DNA of 14,335 nt from an uncultured Gemmatimonadota bacterium (lineage in GTDB: Bacteria; Gemmatimonadota; Gemmatimonadetes; Gemmatimonadales; Gemmatimonadaceae). This document shows positions 6,704 through 12,747 of this stretch, in pieces. Position numbers and translations under genes: made by a program. How positions within the stretch are numbered: position 1 is the first letter of the stretch; the number at the start of each line of letters is the position of its first letter. The DNA lies in assembly GCA_946478895.1 (NCBI GenBank), contig CAMLDY010000060.1, forward strand, positions 1 through 14,335, read 5' to 3'. A model generated the notes under the pieces. The model was given only the letters and a program-made list of their open reading frames with translations. It had not been told where the DNA came from and ran no database searches.

Positions 6704-8014
6704 TCAAGGTCGGTTAGCCGCGCTCGTGGCCGCGCCCGTGCCTGCACCTTCCAGACACGCGGCAACGTCGGCGGCGACGTCGGAGTGACAGGCTTTCTTA
6801 CGTGATTCGATATCGGCAAAAAAGCCGCTCACCTGCAACCCAATGCCGTCCCAGCACCGAGCGCGTGTCTCGCCTTCAGGCAATGACCGACAAAAGGAAA
6901 TGCCGCGCGGGAGCTCACTCGGCGCGTACGCGAGATGGCGCACCGCGCCCTGATAGCAGAACGGCTTGCCATATGCGGATGCCAGATCGCAGCGCCTGCG
7001 GATCCCCTCGAACTGGAACGCCGCCGCGCCCGACGCATTCCTGCCCAGCCCGGAGTAGCACTGGGCGACGAGGATCGGTGTGCCGGCACCATCGCAGACA
7101 GCCCCCGCTTTGCGATAATCCTCCTTCACCGCCGGCAGGATGAGGTCGGCTTGCAGCTCGTAGCACTCCAGCCTGTACCGCTGGGGCGTAGCATCGCAGG
7201 GATAATGAAGATCGTCAGGCTTGAATAGCACGACGTTGGACGCCGGCATCGAGTGCCGGTGCATTCCGAAAGTCCCAGGGTCGCCGAACACCTGCATTCG
7301 GGCACCCATGTTGTGTTCCATGAACACACCACCGTAGCAGCTGCGCTGGTCCCACGGCGTGCGCAGCCGATCGCAGTCGCTGAGGGAAGCATTCACGTCG
7401 TAGCGGTGATACATCATGAGACCGTGGCCGGTGCCGTGGAGGCAGTCGAAGATCCGGAACTGCTCACTCGTTCCACGCAGTCCATCACACGGCGCGAGCA
7501 GGAAATCCTCCGCCAGCGGCATGTCGATCCGCGCATCGAAGTAACGCTGCAGAATTCCGTGGTAGCAGCCCGACTGGTATCGGTCGTCGCACTCGCTGAG
7601 CAGGGCGGTTGCCGTCTTTGGCGTCGAGCGCACCGCGTAGCCGAGCGCGTGAGCGAGTGGGTGTCCGAGCAGAACGAGCGACGGGTCGTTGTGGATTACG
7701 CGATCCAGCGTGCCCATCGCGAGCGCGATGTTGCCGGCCGACGAAAGCGCGGCAAGCCCGTCCCCGATGCACGTCGCATACATGTCGATGGAATGAGCGA
7801 CGTGCGGCTTGCAAAGCCGGAGCAGGGAATCGGCGACGATCGCGGAGTCCGCTACCGATCGCGTCGGTGTCGCCGGGGCGGAGGCAAGAGTGTCGGCGGA
7901 CATGCCCGGCATGGACATGTGCCCATCGTGCTGAGCGCGGAGCGGGCAGGGCATCGCAACCAGCACGGCACCGGCGACGGCTACCGCTGCAGCGATTCGA
8001 GTTGTGCGGATCAT
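6704..8014 (-). CDS. Secreted protein of nine cysteine-pair repeats with His/Met-rich N-terminus, unknown function
   Basis: I do not recognise a named family. The 436-residue product has a Sec signal peptide (cut near residue 27, at LRAQ) and is likely periplasmic. The mature chain holds exactly 18 Cys in nine close pairs: 68/82, 142/150, 176/191, 214/226, 273/284, 307/319, 342/353, 375/387 and 409/420. The second Cys of each is usually followed by an aromatic or Leu residue and then Gly (GCYHG, DCLHG, SCYGG, QCYSG, FCYQG, RCWDG). This looks like helical hairpins each stapled by a disulfide. His/Met clusters HDGHMSMPGM (29-38) and GMHRHSMP (250-257), and CLHGTGHGLM (191-200), suggest metal or heme binding, possibly copper; that is inference. 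C23 is preceded by Pro and is not a lipobox. It heads the LLM/FMN reductase/aldo-keto reductase group. Confidence 0.8.
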   Translation of the reverse strand: MIRTTRIAAAVAVAGAVLVAMPCPLRAQHDGHMSMPGMSADTLASAPATPTRSVADSAIVADSLLRLCKPHVAHSIDMYATCIGDGLAALSSAGNIALAMGTLDRVIHNDPSLVLLGHPLAHALGYAVRSTPKTATALLSECDDRYQSGCYHGILQRYFDARIDMPLAEDFLLAPCDGLRGTSEQFRIFDCLHGTGHGLMMYHRYDVNASLSDCDRLRTPWDQRSCYGGVFMEHNMGARMQVFGDPGTFGMHRHSMPASNVVLFKPDDLHYPCDATPQRYRLECYELQADLILPAVKEDYRKAGAVCDGAGTPILVAQCYSGLGRNASGAAAFQFEGIRRRCDLASAYGKPFCYQGAVRHLAYAPSELPRGISFCRSLPEGETRARCWDGIGLQVSGFFADIESRKKACHSDVAADVAACLEGAGTGAATSAANRP

Positions 8015-8081: not shown

Positions 8082-8408
8082 CTACTTCGCCTCGAGGCTC
8101 AGGCTTCTATTGAGAGCGGTAGCGACATATACCATGTCGATGCTCTTCAGGAACTCGTGCCACGGCGGCGGCGCACGGAACGCCATTTTCCCGCTGGCGT
8201 CCTCCCAGACCGGCACGACAACTCCGGGTATGTCAGAGGCGGCGGCACTGCGCTGGAAGGCTTCCTGGATCCGGGACTGCTCGGCGGGTGATCGCTTGCC
8301 GAATGACCCGTCCACCGGCACGATGATCACATCCTGACCATTCCGCCGTAGATACGCCACCTGAAAGGTGGGCATCGCAGCCACGCGCTTCGCCGCCGGT
8401 TCTCCCAT
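8082..8408 (-). CDS. Hypothetical protein of 108 residues downstream of repeat array A
   Basis: I do not recognise a domain. The chain is a compact mixed alpha/beta protein without a signal peptide or membrane segment. The core from residue 12 reads MPTFQVAYLRRNGQDVII and continues through GVVVPVWED and KMAFRAPPPWHEFLKSID. Two starts are possible. The ATG at 8408 has AAGGA three bases upstream, which is short spacing. The in-frame ATG at 8375 (97 residues) begins at the natural-looking MPTF core, and a TTGACT box next to array A would put its mRNA start just upstream. The 8446-8484 operator-like repeats face this gene. It is followed after 67 bases by the cysteine-pair gene and may be co-transcribed with it. 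Confidence 0.65.
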   Translation of the reverse strand: MGEPAAKRVAAMPTFQVAYLRRNGQDVIIVPVDGSFGKRSPAEQSRIQEAFQRSAAASDIPGVVVPVWEDASGKMAFRAPPPWHEFLKSIDMVYVATALNRSLSLEAK

Positions 8409-8445: not shown

Positions 8446-8484
8446 ATGTCATTTCCTTATCAGAAGATGTCACTTTCATATCAC
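8446..8484 (-). promoter_or_regulatory. Operator-like direct repeat array A (two copies, 21-bp step)
   Basis: Read on the minus strand, the two 18-base units are GTGATATGAAAGTGACAT (8467-8484) and CTGATAAGGAAATGACAT (8446-8463). They match at 14 of 18 positions and start 21 bases apart, that is, two helical turns on the same face. The array lies between the divergent 108-residue gene (start 8408) and the solute-binding protein gene (start 8538). Its inner end abuts a TTGACT hexamer on the minus strand (8441-8446) that could be a -35 box. The orientation and distance toward the minus-strand gene (37 bases to the 8408 ATG) resemble array B and its gene. Confidence 0.7.
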
Positions 8485-8537
8485 CCAGGGTTTTTTCGGG
8501 GAACGCGGATTTTGCGGGGACAACTAGCTTGGTGTCG

Positions 8538-10184
8538 ATGAAATACCTCGCAATCGTGGCCCTGCTGGCGATGGGTGGCTGCAGCGACCGGCAAGGCCAT
8601 GCGCGTGCCGAAAATGGGGGCACACTCGTGATCGTCACCACCGCCGATCCCGGAAGCCTGTTCCCGCCACTCATCATTACGTCCGAGGCGAAGCAGATCG
8701 GCGAGCAGATTTACGACTACCTCGCCGACGTCGGTCCCGACCTCGACATCCGAGACGAGAAAAAATTCCGTCCCGGACTCGCGGATCGCTGGACGTGGAT
8801 GAACGACTCGCTGATGCTTTCGTTCCATATCAACCCGGCAGCGAAGTGGCACGATGGGCGGGACGTAACCGCGCGCGACATCGCGTTCACCTTTGCGCTG
8901 AACAAGAATCCCGTGATGGCCAGCCGGATCGAGTCGGACATCGCCAACATTGACTCGGTCACCGTCACGGATTCGCTGACCGCGGTGTTCTGGTTCCACC
9001 AGCGATCCCCAACTCAGTTTCTCGACGCTGCTGCGCAGATGCTGATTCTTCCGGCGCACCAGCTGGAGAACTTGCGAGTCGACGCGTTGCGGGAGAATCC
9101 ACCGCCGCCGATCGGAACCGGCAGGTTCCGGCTCAGAAAGTGGGACAAGGGTGCTTCCGTGGAGCTCGTTGCGGACACCGCCAACTTTCGCGGCAGGGCC
9201 AGACTCGACCGCGTGATCTGGTCGGTGGCGCCCGAGCTTCAAACCGCGGTAGCGAGATTCCTGGGCGGTGAAGCGGATTTGTTCGCCTCACTGCGACCCG
9301 AAAATCTTGCCGACGTCAGGCGGAAGCGAGATTTGCGGGTGATCGTCCAGCCCGGGATGGACTACGCGTTTCTGCGATTCAACCTGCGCGATCCGAAATC
9401 TCCGCAGCGTCCACATCCATTGTTCGGCGAGCGCGAGCTGCGACGCGCGATCGGCATGTCGCTCGATCGCGCCTCAATGGTGCGCAACGTCTTCGACACC
9501 TTCGCACTCGTCCCAGCGGGTCCGAACGTGCGCGCGTTCGCAAGCACCGACCCAACGCTGCGTCAGCTGCCATTCGATTCGTCGCGGGCGGCCCGGGTGC
9601 TGGACTCCCTCGGGTGGAGGAGGGCGGGCTCCGATGGAATTCGCAGCAAGGCAGGCAGAGACCTTTCGTTCAATTTGATCGTGCCCACCACCAGCCTCGG
9701 CAGAATGAGGATGGCGCCGCTAATTCAGGAGCAGCTGCGGCGCATGGGCGTGCGGGTGCAGATAGAGCCGCTCGAATCGGGCACGGAGCTCGATCGAGAG
9801 ATGAGGGGAGCATTCGACGCAGCGCTCGGCGCGTGGGTGATGCCGTCGAGCCCCGATGCGATTCGGGCGGCGTGGACAACGAGCGGGATAGGAAAGAGCG
9901 GCACCAATTTCGGCTCGTACAGCAATCCGCAATTCGACACGTTGCTCGACAGCGCACTGTGGGCACCACCTGTTTCCGAGCGAGCCGCGTTTGCCCGAGC
10001 CTTCCGGGTAATCAACGAGGATGCACCGGCTATCTGGCTCTACGAAGCGCGCCATCTCCTGGGTGTTAGCCGCCGCATCCGAACCGCCGTCTTGAGGCCC
10101 GATGCCTGGTGGTTCGATCTGGCGGATTGGTACGTTCCGGCGGGGGAGCGGATTTCCCGCGACCGAATGCCTTTTGGGCGTTAA
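8538..10184 (+). CDS. ABC transporter solute-binding lipoprotein, family 5 (oligopeptide/nickel type)
   Basis: This is a binding lipoprotein of DppA/OppA type, anchored at the outer face of the inner membrane or in the periplasm. I choose the ATG at 8538 (548 residues) because it gives a short lipoprotein signal, MKYLAIVALLAMGGC, with C15 as the lipidation site. The frame stays open upstream to a GTG at 8409, but that stretch runs through repeat array A. Family hallmarks are GTLVIVTTADPGSLFPP near 28-44, AKWHDGRDVTARDIAFTF at 102-119 and GTGRFRLRKWDKG at 193-205. The C-terminal region carries the usual substrate-domain FGSYSNPQFDTLLDSA motif. No permease or ATPase genes are adjacent, so it is an orphan component in this window. 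The ligand is unknown. Confidence 0.9.
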   Translation: MKYLAIVALLAMGGCSDRQGHARAENGGTLVIVTTADPGSLFPPLIITSEAKQIGEQIYDYLADVGPDLDIRDEKKFRPGLADRWTWMNDSLMLSFHINPAAKWHDGRDVTARDIAFTFALNKNPVMASRIESDIANIDSVTVTDSLTAVFWFHQRSPTQFLDAAAQMLILPAHQLENLRVDALRENPPPPIGTGRFRLRKWDKGASVELVADTANFRGRARLDRVIWSVAPELQTAVARFLGGEADLFASLRPENLADVRRKRDLRVIVQPGMDYAFLRFNLRDPKSPQRPHPLFGERELRRAIGMSLDRASMVRNVFDTFALVPAGPNVRAFASTDPTLRQLPFDSSRAARVLDSLGWRRAGSDGIRSKAGRDLSFNLIVPTTSLGRMRMAPLIQEQLRRMGVRVQIEPLESGTELDREMRGAFDAALGAWVMPSSPDAIRAAWTTSGIGKSGTNFGSYSNPQFDTLLDSALWAPPVSERAAFARAFRVINEDAPAIWLYEARHLLGVSRRIRTAVLRPDAWWFDLADWYVPAGERISRDRMPFGR

Positions 10185-10214
10185 GTGCCCCCTAGAGGGT
10201 TTAACCGTTCGGGG

Positions 10215-10279
10215 GTGATATGAAAATGCCCCTTCGGTGATACGAAACTGGCATTTCGGAATGCGGGGAAAAGTGACAT
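10215..10279 (+). promoter_or_regulatory. Operator-like direct repeat array B upstream of the TPR-like gene
   Basis: The plus-strand units are GTGATATGAAAATGCCCC (10215-10232) and GTGATACGAAACTGGCAT (10237-10254), 22 bases apart. A degenerate third unit, TGCGGGGAAAAGTGACAT (10262-10279), keeps the 3' half only. The last unit ends 35 bases before the TPR-like gene ATG at 10315, close to the 37 bases seen for array A. The open reading frame of the next gene runs back through this array, but repeat conservation with two other non-coding sites argues that it is not translated. There is no other gene in 10185-10314. Confidence 0.68.
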
Positions 10280-10314
10280 TTTTGAGGCACAAAATTCCGC
10301 CAAAAAAGGCCCAA

Positions 10315-11541
10315 ATGATCCGGCATCAGGTCTATTTCGACACCCTTGGCTCCATCAAGGAGGACAGCGCTACGTGGCGCTCCGCCTTCGCCGGACTTTC
10401 GGTCCTGCGGCTGGTGGATTCCTACGCGGATGCCGGCGGAGTCGCGGATCCTGGCGGCTGGGCCCAGATCCACAACGTTCGCGCTGCTATCGAAGCCGTG
10501 AGCGAAGGTGATCCAATCCGTGGCGTGTTGACGACCGTACTCGAGGAGCTGACGCGGGGCGCGGGCATCGATGAGACCGTTTGCACCGCACTCCTCGCGT
10601 ACGGTCGTGCGCTGGACTACGAGGCGAACTGGGGCCTCGCGACCGATGTTTTCACCACCGTCACCAAACTGTCGCGTCCGGAAAAGAATCCCAAGCTGGC
10701 CATCGAGGCGCAGATCGCCCTCGGCGGTGCCGCCCGTCGCAACGGCGATTGGGAAGTTTCGGCCCGCGCGTACTCGCAGGCCGCGTATGTCGCGGACGCG
10801 ATTGGTGACTGTCAGGGGGTTCTGACGGTGCAGGTGGGTATCGCGAACACCTACCTGGCGAAGGGCAATCTGCCGCAGGCTCAGACGATTCTGGACGACG
10901 TAATCGTGCAGTCGCGCGACATGGCGCTGCCGGAAGTCGAGGGGATGGCGCTGCATAGTCGCTCTTCACTCGCTCAACAGAAGGGTGAGAAAGCGGAAAC
11001 CGTCAAGTACGCTCATGAGGCGCTTGAGCTGACGAAACGGCCCAGTGAGCGAGATAGAATCCTCGCAGACTTGGCTGTGGGATTTTCGCTAATCGGGTTG
11101 AGAGACGCTGCGCGCGATGCACAGCTCATACTCGCGGCAACGGCGCAAACGAAATGGGTCCGCTGGCAAGCAACGGTCAACTTGATGGAAATCGCTGCCG
11201 AGGACGGAATGGGCGACGCTTTTGATGCGTACGCCGCGGAATTGAGAAAAGCTCCGCTTGGGCCGTGGTTGAAATCCCACTTCCTGTTATTCCTTGGTGA
11301 GGGGCTTGAGCAGTTCGGCCGATATGAAGCTGCTGAGCAGGTGCTTTGCGAAGCGATTGACTACTCTAACGCGAACCAAATCTTCTCGGTGAATTTTCGC
11401 GCTGAAGAATCCCTCAACCTCGTTCGGTCACGAAGCCGCCGGCAACTTCCGGAACCGACGTTTGCCCAAGTGCCCCAGGAAGTCCTTGCGGCAGCTCACG
11501 CTGTTTCTGAGCTGCGCAAGGCCGCCTTGGTTTCCGCGTGA
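10315..11541 (+). CDS. TPR-like helical repeat protein, unknown function
   Basis: This is a cytosolic all-helical protein of 408 residues from the ATG at 10315, which has AAAGG (10305-10309) just upstream. GTG 10237 and ATG 10261 are in frame but lie inside repeat array B. After an N-terminal helical bundle (to about 90), TPR-type helix pairs with the usual small and aromatic residues are visible near 128-163 (IALGGAARRNGDWEVSARAY) and 168-203 (GIANTYLAKGNLPQAQTILD). A weaker copy runs to about 243, with more helices to 360. There is no signal peptide and no DNA-binding domain that I can see. Size and architecture recall Rap/RRNPP-type peptide sensors, but that is only an analogy. The last third (from about 11,040) is visibly richer in A/T. 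Its stop is one base from the stop of the convergent small lipoprotein gene. Confidence 0.8.
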   Translation: MIRHQVYFDTLGSIKEDSATWRSAFAGLSVLRLVDSYADAGGVADPGGWAQIHNVRAAIEAVSEGDPIRGVLTTVLEELTRGAGIDETVCTALLAYGRALDYEANWGLATDVFTTVTKLSRPEKNPKLAIEAQIALGGAARRNGDWEVSARAYSQAAYVADAIGDCQGVLTVQVGIANTYLAKGNLPQAQTILDDVIVQSRDMALPEVEGMALHSRSSLAQQKGEKAETVKYAHEALELTKRPSERDRILADLAVGFSLIGLRDAARDAQLILAATAQTKWVRWQATVNLMEIAAEDGMGDAFDAYAAELRKAPLGPWLKSHFLLFLGEGLEQFGRYEAAEQVLCEAIDYSNANQIFSVNFRAEESLNLVRSRSRRQLPEPTFAQVPQEVLAAAHAVSELRKAALVSA

Positions 11542-11542
11542 T

Positions 11543-11680
11543 CTAGTGCGCCACGCAGGTTGATGAGCCGCTGGTGACAGGGCACGGAGCGTCATTCTTC
11601 GGAGCGGTCATATCCGAGCACGCAGCAAGAACGACGGACGCGATGACGCTGGTGACGATGAGAAGGCGACGGCGGATCAT
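11543..11680 (-). CDS. Small 45-residue lipoprotein / secreted peptide precursor
   Basis: This short gene is easily missed. The chain starts MIRRRLLIVTSV, has a hydrophobic core and a perfect lipobox VLAAC with C21 as the lipidation site. It leaves a 25-residue mature peptide starting CSDMTAPKNDAPCPVTSG and ending SSTCVAH. C33 and C42 could form a disulfide. An ideal ribosome site AGGAGA (complement of 11688-11693) lies seven bases before the ATG. The C-S-D-x-T-A-P opening after the lipobox is a style I associate with Gemmatimonadota lipoproteins. It is convergent with the TPR-like gene (one-base gap) and divergent from the AraC-type regulator gene. Repeat array C faces it. The function is unknown; it could be a small envelope lipoprotein, a signal peptide precursor or a regulated target. 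Confidence 0.8.
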   Translation of the reverse strand: MIRRRLLIVTSVIASVVLAACSDMTAPKNDAPCPVTSGSSTCVAH

Positions 11681-11687
11681 TGGGGTA

Positions 11688-11693
11688 TCTCCT
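11688..11693 (-). promoter_or_regulatory. Ribosome binding site of the small lipoprotein gene
   Basis: AGGAGA on the minus strand, seven bases before the ATG at 11680, is the best Shine-Dalgarno match in the window and is a main argument that this short frame is a gene. Confidence 0.85.
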
Positions 11694-11714
11694 GACAATT
11701 TGGGGTGGGTGTTA

Positions 11715-11759
11715 AATGGCCGTACGGTTTACCGCTGCAACGTACGGCCTTCGGCCATT
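11715..11759. repeat. Nested inverted repeats in the leader of the small lipoprotein gene
   Basis: GGCCGTACG (11718-11726) and CGTACGGCC (11741-11749) are perfect complements around a 14-base loop. An outer pair, AATGGCC (11715-11721) and GGCCATT (11753-11759), shares part of the left arm, so the two hairpins would exclude each other. There is no T run, so it does not look like a simple terminator. It sits between array C and the lipoprotein start, in the likely 5' leader or promoter, and could be a palindromic operator or an RNA structure. Confidence 0.55.
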
Positions 11760-11765
11760 CCCGAA

Positions 11766-11825
11766 ATGTCGTTTTCTTATCAGAAAATGTCTGTTTTATA
11801 TCACGAACAGCACTTTTCTTATCAC
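11766..11825 (-). promoter_or_regulatory. Operator-like direct repeat array C (three copies, exact 21-bp step)
   Basis: On the minus strand the units are GTGATAAGAAAAGTGCTG (11808-11825), GTGATATAAAACAGACAT (11787-11804) and CTGATAAGAAAACGACAT (11766-11783), at exact 21-base intervals. They share T2, G3, A10, A11 and C16 with all copies in arrays A and B. The array lies between the divergent small lipoprotein gene and the AraC-type regulator gene, with the conserved orientation toward the lipoprotein. It ends 85 bases from the lipoprotein ATG and about 58 bases from the regulator's GTG, so it could also mediate autoregulation. Confidence 0.75.
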
Positions 11826-11883: not shown

Positions 11884-12747
11884 GTGAGTGTCGCGGCGTT
11901 CCTGCCACCGAAACTGGTCGCCCACCTCCGGCACGTTCTGACGGACGAGGCTGAGCTGTTGATCGCCTCTTCCTGGCAGGAGCTGGAGACCCTCATCCGC
12001 CGCAAACCGGTCAACGTCGTCATCGTCGACCCTGCCGCCGACGGCATTATGAACGTCAGCGCCGTCGCCGACCTCCTGAAGCGTTATCCGTCGCTCCCCC
12101 TCATCGCGTACGTCACTCTCCATCCACCCCAGTTCAGCGCCGTCGCCCAGCTGGGACGGCTTGGGCTCAAGGAGGTCGTACTTCATCGCTTCGACGACGA
12201 GCCGGAGGGCTTCAGGGAGAGGGTCGAGCGCCTCGAGGGGAACTCACTCACCCACGACGTTCTGGAGACTCTGCGCGGCCGGCTCGGGCTGGTCCCACGC
12301 CAGCTTTCGGTGGCGATCGAGGACCTTTTCGCCTCACCGCACCGCTACATGAGCGCGCTCGACCTGGCCATGGAGGCCGGGCTCGCGATCGTGAGACTTT
12401 ACAGAAATCTCGACGCGGCCCAGATCGGATCGCCCAAGCGCCTCGTCATCGCCGCCAAAGTCCTGCGCGGTTTCGGCTACCTTCGTGACCCGGGCTACTC
12501 GGTTCTCGATGTGTCGGTAAAGCTTGGCTACAAGACGTCGCGAATCTTTTCGCAGCACTGGGAGATGGTGTTCGGCCACACTCCCGCGCGGTTGCGGACG
12601 CGTCTCACCGACGACGCGGCAATAGAGGCAGTGATGCGGTGGCTCAAGGCGGGCGACGACGACTCGTCGCTGGGCGGGGATTCAGGCCACCCGCCGGGCC
12701 ATAATGGCAACCGCCGGCGGCGTCGCCGGCGGCCAGAGCCGAGCTAG
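11884..12747 (+). CDS. Regulator with degenerate receiver-like domain and AraC-type DNA-binding domain
   Basis: This is a cytosolic transcription factor of 287 residues. Residues 1-120 look like a response-regulator fold: NVVIVDP at 44-50 puts D49 at the phospho-acceptor strand. The acidic pair expected after strand 1 is absent, so it is probably a pseudo-receiver. Residues about 155-240 fit a full AraC/XylS domain: a first helix-turn-helix ALDLAMEAGLAIVRLYRNL (158-176), the linker helix near 185-200, and a second one, SVKLGYKTSRIFSQHWEMVF (211-230), ending GHTPARLR (231-238). An odd tail follows, Asp/Gly/His-rich and then seven consecutive Arg. The start is GTG at 11884; the only AGGA is some 18 bases upstream, so initiation is weak or the start is uncertain. 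It is divergent from the small lipoprotein gene across array C and is the natural candidate to bind these repeats. Confidence 0.85.
   Translation: MSVAAFLPPKLVAHLRHVLTDEAELLIASSWQELETLIRRKPVNVVIVDPAADGIMNVSAVADLLKRYPSLPLIAYVTLHPPQFSAVAQLGRLGLKEVVLHRFDDEPEGFRERVERLEGNSLTHDVLETLRGRLGLVPRQLSVAIEDLFASPHRYMSALDLAMEAGLAIVRLYRNLDAAQIGSPKRLVIAAKVLRGFGYLRDPGYSVLDVSVKLGYKTSRIFSQHWEMVFGHTPARLRTRLTDDAAIEAVMRWLKAGDDDSSLGGDSGHPPGHNGNRRRRRRRPEPS

Follow-up and report, generated by a model that had tools for sequence, protein, structure and literature searches.

Tandem repeats beside a conserved TPR protein-lipoprotein module in Gemmatimonadaceae as probable operators of an AraC-type regulator

A 14,335-nt contig from an uncultured Gemmatimonadaceae bacterium (CAMLDY010000060.1, assembly GCA_946478895.1; this whole stretch is referred to as the window) carries three arrays of head-to-tail repeats, arrays A, B, and C, which are probably tandem operators of the AraC-type regulator encoded at positions 11884 to 12747. 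The repeats, their conservation, their fixed distance from a TAnnnT hexamer, the gene module around them, and their genomic association with the regulator are established at the level of sequence. Each repeat would be a half-site, with regulator subunits bound side by side on one face of the DNA, two helical turns apart. The proximal half-site would abut the -35 region, and the bound regulator would touch the polymerase. Genes activated in this manner would be those for a small lipoprotein (array C), a tetratricopeptide repeat (TPR) protein (array B), and a 108-aa protein (array A), possibly also the SBP_bac_5 gene on the other side of array A, and others elsewhere in the genome. Because the regulator would activate the lipoprotein and TPR genes, whose products may act upstream of it as signal and sensor, the arrangement would amount to a positive loop. 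We infer binding to the arrays, activation on binding, and these upstream roles from the evidence below.

Half-sites in the window and in related genomes

The original prediction had proposed eight copies of an 18-bp motif, seven good and one degenerate, and had placed them at the correct coordinates. Six of the eight fit the proposed consensus with at most three mismatches, compared to 0.01 expected, and six were reached in none of 200 dinucleotide-preserving shuffles. The seventh copy (11808 to 11825) has more mismatches, yet it scores 19.2 bits against a matrix derived from the full set of eight, and relatives retain a variant upstream half-site at its position. The degenerate eighth copy, the supposed third copy of array B at 10262 to 10279 on the plus strand, scores 9.8 bits despite its own inclusion in the matrix, and chance matches elsewhere in the window score 8.6 to 11.9. 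Nine other TPR upstream regions (TPR identity of at least 59%) all lack a core at that place. This copy was rejected because of its background-like score and the lack of a core in those nine regions, and seven half-sites stand: two in array A (8446 to 8484, minus strand), two in array B (10215 to 10254, plus strand), and three in array C (11766 to 11825, minus strand).

The predicted head-to-tail step was confirmed as 21 bp in arrays A and C and 22 bp in array B. Ten TPR genes, the window's included, reach 50% TPR identity; the array B pair lies upstream of 8 of them, always with a 22-bp step. The further claim that the arrays lie between genes and point at a gene start on the matching strand holds provided that 8538 and 10315 are the true starts of the SBP_bac_5 and TPR genes, respectively. 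Both starts are given by the open reading frame (ORF) caller and by homologues; the mechanically longest ORFs extend farther 5' and would run into arrays A and B.

A regulator-based scan found three metagenome-assembled relatives, Gemmatimonadetes isolates palsa_1239 and palsa_1244 and Gemmatimonadaceae isolate Chersky.7_28. In the first two (L001 and L002), all three arrays occupy positions matching those in the window, as expected of conserved sites; the contig of the third (L003) starts inside the module, and array C is present. Array A also lies upstream of the 108-aa orthologue in L001, L002, L010, L012, L060, and L074. A tandem pattern with the step fixed at 21 bp, and hence blind to array B, matched 10 times in genome G001, three times in G002, and three times in G003, compared to no matches for the reversed-pattern control, which bears out the predicted operator family and regulon as far as relatives can test it. 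The enrichment expected of such a scan was also seen across the genus, where 14 of 19 genomes contain tandem matches (10 of the 14 with a match of no more than two mismatches) and the reversed control gave none. The regulator is present in 16 of these 19 genomes, including all 14 positives (best E value, 2.7e-56 or lower), and the three genomes that lack it have no match.

In a sample of 246 genomes of the class, the pattern was found in eight: G001 (10 matches), G213 (5), G003 (3), G033 (1, with three mismatches, adjoining the regulator), and G007, G048, G090, and G132, with one three-mismatch match each. A regulator homologue with an E value of 1e-15 or better is encoded in 64 of the 246 genomes, and its identity to the window's regulator is at least 50% only in G001, G003, G213, and G033. 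All four of these have matches, compared to 4 of the other 242, each with a single three-mismatch match; likewise, 4 of the 240 sampled genomes outside the genus are positive, again with single three-mismatch matches. Two loci outside the genus, L050 (G048) and L051 (G007), share a common tandem site, TGCTAAAAAACCAGCATC...TGCTAAGAAA, and distant regulator homologues are found elsewhere in both genomes.

An ORF caller trained on the window genes was run on 36 loci, 32 of them in genus genomes and 30 of these with matrix sites. The sites lie between genes, as predicted, in 27 of the 30 genus loci, the exceptions being L014, L068, and L070. Recurrent targets are the 108-aa gene (L010, L012, L060, and L074), the TPR gene, and the lipoprotein gene. 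Other genes downstream of arrays encode a histidine kinase with a HAMP domain (L056), a CHASE3 protein (L019), a peptidoglycan-binding protein (L014), a helicase (L016), and lipoproteins without a Pfam match (L009 and L017). Near positions 1250 to 1400 of L009, two arrays diverge, and the one on the minus strand is directed at a stretch of the other strand that looks like a tRNA gene by eye.

The conserved module and its promoter geometry

The original prediction regarded the three target genes as otherwise unrelated, which is wrong for two of them: the TPR protein and the lipoprotein are regular partners of the regulator across the family. Homologues of the TPR gene occur in 75 of 179 family genomes. 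When a module pair was defined as a TPR homologue and a regulator homologue that share a strand and are separated by less than 1.5 kb, the examined loci gave 51 distinct pairs. A small lipoprotein ORF lies on the opposite strand between the two genes in 49 of the 51 (L132 is a doubtful member), compared to one on the control strand and a mean of 0.5 in shuffles. Judged by this gene order, the TPR protein, the convergent small lipoprotein, and the AraC-type regulator constitute one conserved module.

For the promoter geometry, 58 regulator upstream regions were reduced to 47 modules by dropping nine without a lipoprotein call, L049 (a wrong call), and one near-duplicate; the gene start was set by hand for L007, L008, and L128. 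A motif-free periodicity test peaked at 21 bp, with a mean z of 4.6 in the 11 close modules and 2.4 in the 36 distant ones, and single-shift scores were highest at 21 bp in 7 of the 11 and 15 of the 36, respectively. The letters of the repeat vary by lineage: TGATAnGAAAACGACAT in the window's genus and TGGCACAAAATGC, TGTCCTAAAAGTGCA, or TGTCGCAAAAACGCC elsewhere. The 18-bp consensus is the form that a more general operator takes in one genus. A pair of TG....[AG]AA cores 20 to 22 bp apart was found upstream of the lipoprotein gene in 36 of the 47 modules, 33 of them at exactly 21 bp (mean of 0.05 and maximum of 2 in shuffles). Downstream of the last TG, TAnnnT follows at exactly 38 nt in 27 of these 36 modules and at 39 nt in two, and any other offset occurs three times at most. 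This fixed distance would put the proximal half-site against the -35 box, and the sites appear to have the geometry of an activator beside that box.

The regulator combines a receiver fold at its N terminus with a double helix-turn-helix (HTH) DNA-binding domain of the AraC type. Residues 161 to 240 match HTH_18 with an E value of 1.4e-6, and the model matches the AraC-type DNA-binding domains 3mkl, 3w6v, and 3oio with target TM (template modeling) scores of 0.77 to 0.81 and E values of 0.0016 to 0.0032. Among 49 diverse module regulators (dereplicated from 90 sequences), D49, P50, and Y76 do not vary. At position 8, 37 of the 49 have P, and at position 9, 6 have D or E; at position 102, taken by eye as the lysine site, 30 have R and the other 19 have G, S, H, P, or N. 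The acidic pocket and the conserved lysine were judged against the receiver consensus, placed by eye. Response regulators with AraC-type output, such as AraT (PDB 6swi), have the same combination of domains, but here the acidic pocket and the lysine are mostly missing. A classical two-component response regulator, with an acidic pocket, a phospho-acceptor Asp, and a strand-5 Lys, was therefore rejected as a description, D49 aside.

The half-sites of araI have a 21-bp step and overlap the -35 region. In araBAD, the two proximal AraC operators are araI1 and araI2, according to an excerpt of PMC4760080. AraC/XylS activators of this kind are similar to the system described here in their fold and in their head-to-tail half-sites about two helical turns apart, the proximal one beside the -35 box. 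They differ in that the regulator here has a receiver-like N-terminal domain instead of a sugar-binding one, its arrays hold two or three copies, and its partners are a TPR protein and a lipopeptide.

Coordinates of the half-sites and of the elements around them are given in Table 1. Array A sits between the SBP_bac_5 gene and the 108-aa gene. The TPR_12 match to the TPR protein scores 31.1 bits, above the cutoff of 30.1; its model is all-helical, and no signal sequence is apparent by eye. The TPR and lipoprotein genes converge, and a single base separates their ends (11539 to 11545). Downstream of the 108-aa gene, positions 6704 to 8014 on the minus strand encode a 436-aa protein that contains cysteine, has a signal-like stretch at its N terminus, and matches no Pfam family. 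An oligopeptide-binding protein as a general part of the module was unsupported: an SBP_bac_5 gene lies directly upstream of the TPR gene, 132 to 175 bp away, in 12 of 19 genus genomes, and no neighbor of this type was seen among the listed TPR genes of other genera compared by eye.

Table 1. Half-sites, candidate promoter element, and genes in the window
Feature	Positions	Strand	Sequence or remark
Array A, proximal half-site	8446..8463	-	CTGATAAGGAAATGACAT
Array A, distal half-site	8467..8484	-	GTGATATGAAAGTGACAT
Array B, distal half-site, 22-bp step	10215..10232	+	GTGATATGAAAATGCCCC
Array B, proximal half-site	10237..10254	+	GTGATACGAAACTGGCAT
Array C, promoter-proximal half-site	11766..11783	-	CTGATAAGAAAACGACAT
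Array C, middle half-site	11787..11804	-	GTGATATAAAACAGACAT
Array C, distal variant half-site	11808..11825	-	GTGATAAGAAAAGTGCTG; GTGCTG/GCGCTG endings recur in close relatives
Candidate -10 element TACGTT, lipoprotein promoter	11739..11744	-	38 nt from TG of proximal half-site
108-aa protein, downstream of array A	8082..8408	-	No Pfam match
SBP_bac_5 (oligopeptide-binding type) lipoprotein	8538..10184	+	PF00496, E value 7.5e-63 (frame read from 8496)
TPR-repeat protein, 408 aa	10315..11541	+	Pfam TPR_12, E value 2.7e-7; model pLDDT (predicted local distance difference test) 89.3
Small lipoprotein gene, 45 aa, lipobox LAAC, C-terminal core CPVTSGSSTC	11543..11680	-	Stop beside TPR stop codon
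Regulator, 287 aa, receiver-like N-terminal fold and AraC-type HTH	11884..12747	+	Proposed binder of the arrays

Weighing the operator assignment

Several observations count against the assignment of the arrays to this regulator as activating operators. The HTH_18 score, 29.0 bits, is under the Pfam cutoff of 33.6, and only FixJ passes an E value of 0.001 in Foldseek, with the AraC-type matches at 0.001 to 0.003. The count of core pairs was not blind, because the core was picked after reading the same regions, and 11 of the 47 modules have no such pair. Only weak -10-like hexamers accompany arrays A and B at about the expected place. An upstream pair is present in 5 of 21 distant TPR genes (less than 50% identity), compared to 8 of 10 close ones (at least 50%). 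Of 10 further lipoprotein genes, one has the core pair; 21 bp is the best shift in three of them (L174, L177, and L186), and in L168 the best shift is 42 bp, followed by 21 bp. These 10 come from paralogous modules, where 20 stretches gave 15 lipoprotein ORFs, with the core pair in five, of which four are already in the 47-module set; L182 was already in that count, without a pair. In genomes G033, G253, G254, and G257, the sole match has three mismatches, and it lies on the module's contig, whereas G251 and G255 have the regulator (43% and 42% identity, respectively) but no tandem match. The co-occurrence of hits and regulator is also an association rather than a count of independent events, because the genus genomes are relatives and possibly incomplete. 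For other genera, a scan of 179 genomes with TGNCNNRAAANNGC in tandem at 21 bp and one mismatch gave five matches in five genomes, compared to five for the reversed control, and did not show a dispersed regulon; the pattern is insensitive, because it misses most module operators with core pairs. Its matches include L132, beside a TPR homologue (G286:C112), L136, beside the G138 regulator, and L133, about 1.7 kb from a TPR homologue (G288:C221).

It is quite unlikely that another transcription factor, one with a general role in the genus, uses the arrays as operators and that the AraC-type gene is a mere neighbor of one of them. The subthreshold HTH_18 score would allow this, as would the many unrelated genes near arrays in G001, but the matches track the regulator across the 246 class and 19 genus genomes, and an array between the lipoprotein and regulator genes recurs family-wide while its letters diverge. 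Repression by the same regulator at the same operators, with the proximal half-site blocking the -35 region until some cue releases it, is a somewhat less remote alternative, although still improbable. Occlusion fits the proximal half-site against the -35 in the aligned modules equally well, and arrays A and C lie between divergent genes. However, contact between activator and polymerase fits both the precise spacing from the -10 hexamer and the presence of several head-to-tail sites, and AraC-type regulators act mostly as activators, as stated in an excerpt of PMC8151288. A chance, mobile, or structural DNA repeat without a regulatory role is extremely improbable; only the degenerate eighth copy would suit it, and it conflicts with the shuffles, the zero control matches, the conservation in place, the 21-bp periodicity, and the intergenic placement. 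Operators of the AraC-type regulator encoded beside array C thus remain the preferred explanation of the arrays.

A possible peptide signal and its receptor

What the lipoprotein and the TPR protein do is less certain. A tentative reading, which may be correct, is signaling of the Rap-Phr kind, in which the C-terminal core of the lipoprotein would be a secreted signal, the TPR protein would be a cytoplasmic receptor controlling the pseudo-receiver/AraC regulator, and a positive loop would act on the lipopeptide gene. It is favored by the RRNPP signature as given in an excerpt of PMC10075063, by the constrained lipoprotein tail and its duplication, and by folds. Against it, the TPR fold match is nonspecific, the covariation of the tail is marginal, and the importer-type neighbor (SBP_bac_5) is found only in the genus. 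With regard to the signature, the 45-aa lipoprotein of the window is within the 10 to 100 aa of a propeptide, the 408-aa TPR protein is within the 250 to 500 aa of a TPR-containing receptor, and the two genes are direct neighbors, as in 49 of the 51 TPR-regulator pairs.

The lipoproteins share a basic start, a hydrophobic stretch, and a lipobox (by pattern only), and in 47 of the 49 a TAP, TGP, or similar segment follows the lipid cysteine and precedes the tail. Homologues of the lipoprotein fall into 183 clusters. The 120 that are listed are 41 to 73 aa long; all of these have tails with GS-x(1,2)-C, and 98 have C-x-[IVL]-x(1,2)-GS-x(1,2)-C, in a search that favors GS-x(1,2)-C tails because it needs shared words. 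In the family-wide set, G[SN] occurs near the end of 34 of 49 tails, with or without cysteines, compared to 11 expected from shuffled tails. Covariation was computed from 43 of the 49 tails, some of them front-trimmed (L067, L114, L125, L129, L132, and L181 were left out), in 38 modules with long enough TPR and regulator matches; the partial correlation is marginal for tail and TPR (0.16, P = 0.036) and 0.07 (P = 0.16) for tail and regulator. In the lipoprotein beside the regulator of L043 (G160), the last eight residues are exactly duplicated in tandem (LETQGSNN twice), and L047 has one ETQGSNN copy. Tandem tail duplications like this occur in some pheromone precursors. Some genomes hold several modules: G172, G178, and G060 (L167 to L178) have four regulator homologues each, with four lipoproteins of different tails in G172, four in G060, and three in G178, and the upstream sequences are mostly different.

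Alternatively, the small lipoprotein might be an envelope effector resembling entericidins or lysis proteins, and the module an envelope stress or lysis switch instead of a signaling loop, which we consider unlikely. Its size and lipobox resemble those of small envelope lipoproteins, and some homologues bear the putative names Lpp or LolB; one gene downstream of an array (L014) has a peptidoglycan-binding domain. An effector of this kind would leave unexplained the constrained C-terminal core, the tandem tail duplication, and the regular pairing with a TPR protein in which no signal sequence is visible by eye.

If the Rap-Phr-like reading is followed to its full extent, the Gemmatimonadaceae would have independently assembled such a circuit, a proposal that we put forward with some reserve. 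The lipoprotein core (C-P/G-V-x-x-G-S-x-x-C and variants) would be a released pheromone, and the TPR receptor would bind it and control the pseudo-receiver/AraC regulator. Through the 21-bp tandem operators, this regulator would switch on the pheromone, the receptor, a dispersed regulon, and, in one genus, a dedicated oligopeptide-binding protein. Several insulated channels, each with its own tail and operator dialect, would then coexist in some genomes.

Enterococcal sex pheromones come from the signal sequence of longer lipoproteins and are reimported with an oligopeptide-binding protein. The system here would be like them in drawing a peptide signal from a lipoprotein precursor and reimporting it with an oligopeptide-binding protein, but its constrained part is the C terminus of a short lipoprotein. 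Peptide signaling through cytoplasmic TPR receptors is described for Bacillota in excerpts of PMC10075063 and PMC9765709. As in the RRNPP(A)/Rap-Phr systems of that phylum, a gene for a small, putatively exported peptide lies directly beside a gene for a 250- to 500-aa TPR protein, NprR and Rap are fold matches of the TPR protein, a partner with a receiver fold is present, one member has a tandem tail duplication, and some genomes have several modules. In contrast, the phylum here is diderm, the putative signal is of the lipoprotein type, the gene order is convergent, and a separate AraC-type regulator is encoded in the module; sequence searches against PDB structures detected no similarity, and the fold comparisons cover the families that the fold searches list. 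In the open-licence literature, we found no paper on the motif, the module, or the partner set.

If true, the operator reading alone would provide a binding motif, a regulator, and a regulon for a phylum with little regulatory work. The signaling reading, if true, would extend TPR-receptor peptide signaling to a soil phylum with two membranes and would raise the question of how a lipid-anchored peptide leaves and reenters the cell. The motif, the tails, and the multimodule genomes make this testable with synthetic peptides and reporters.

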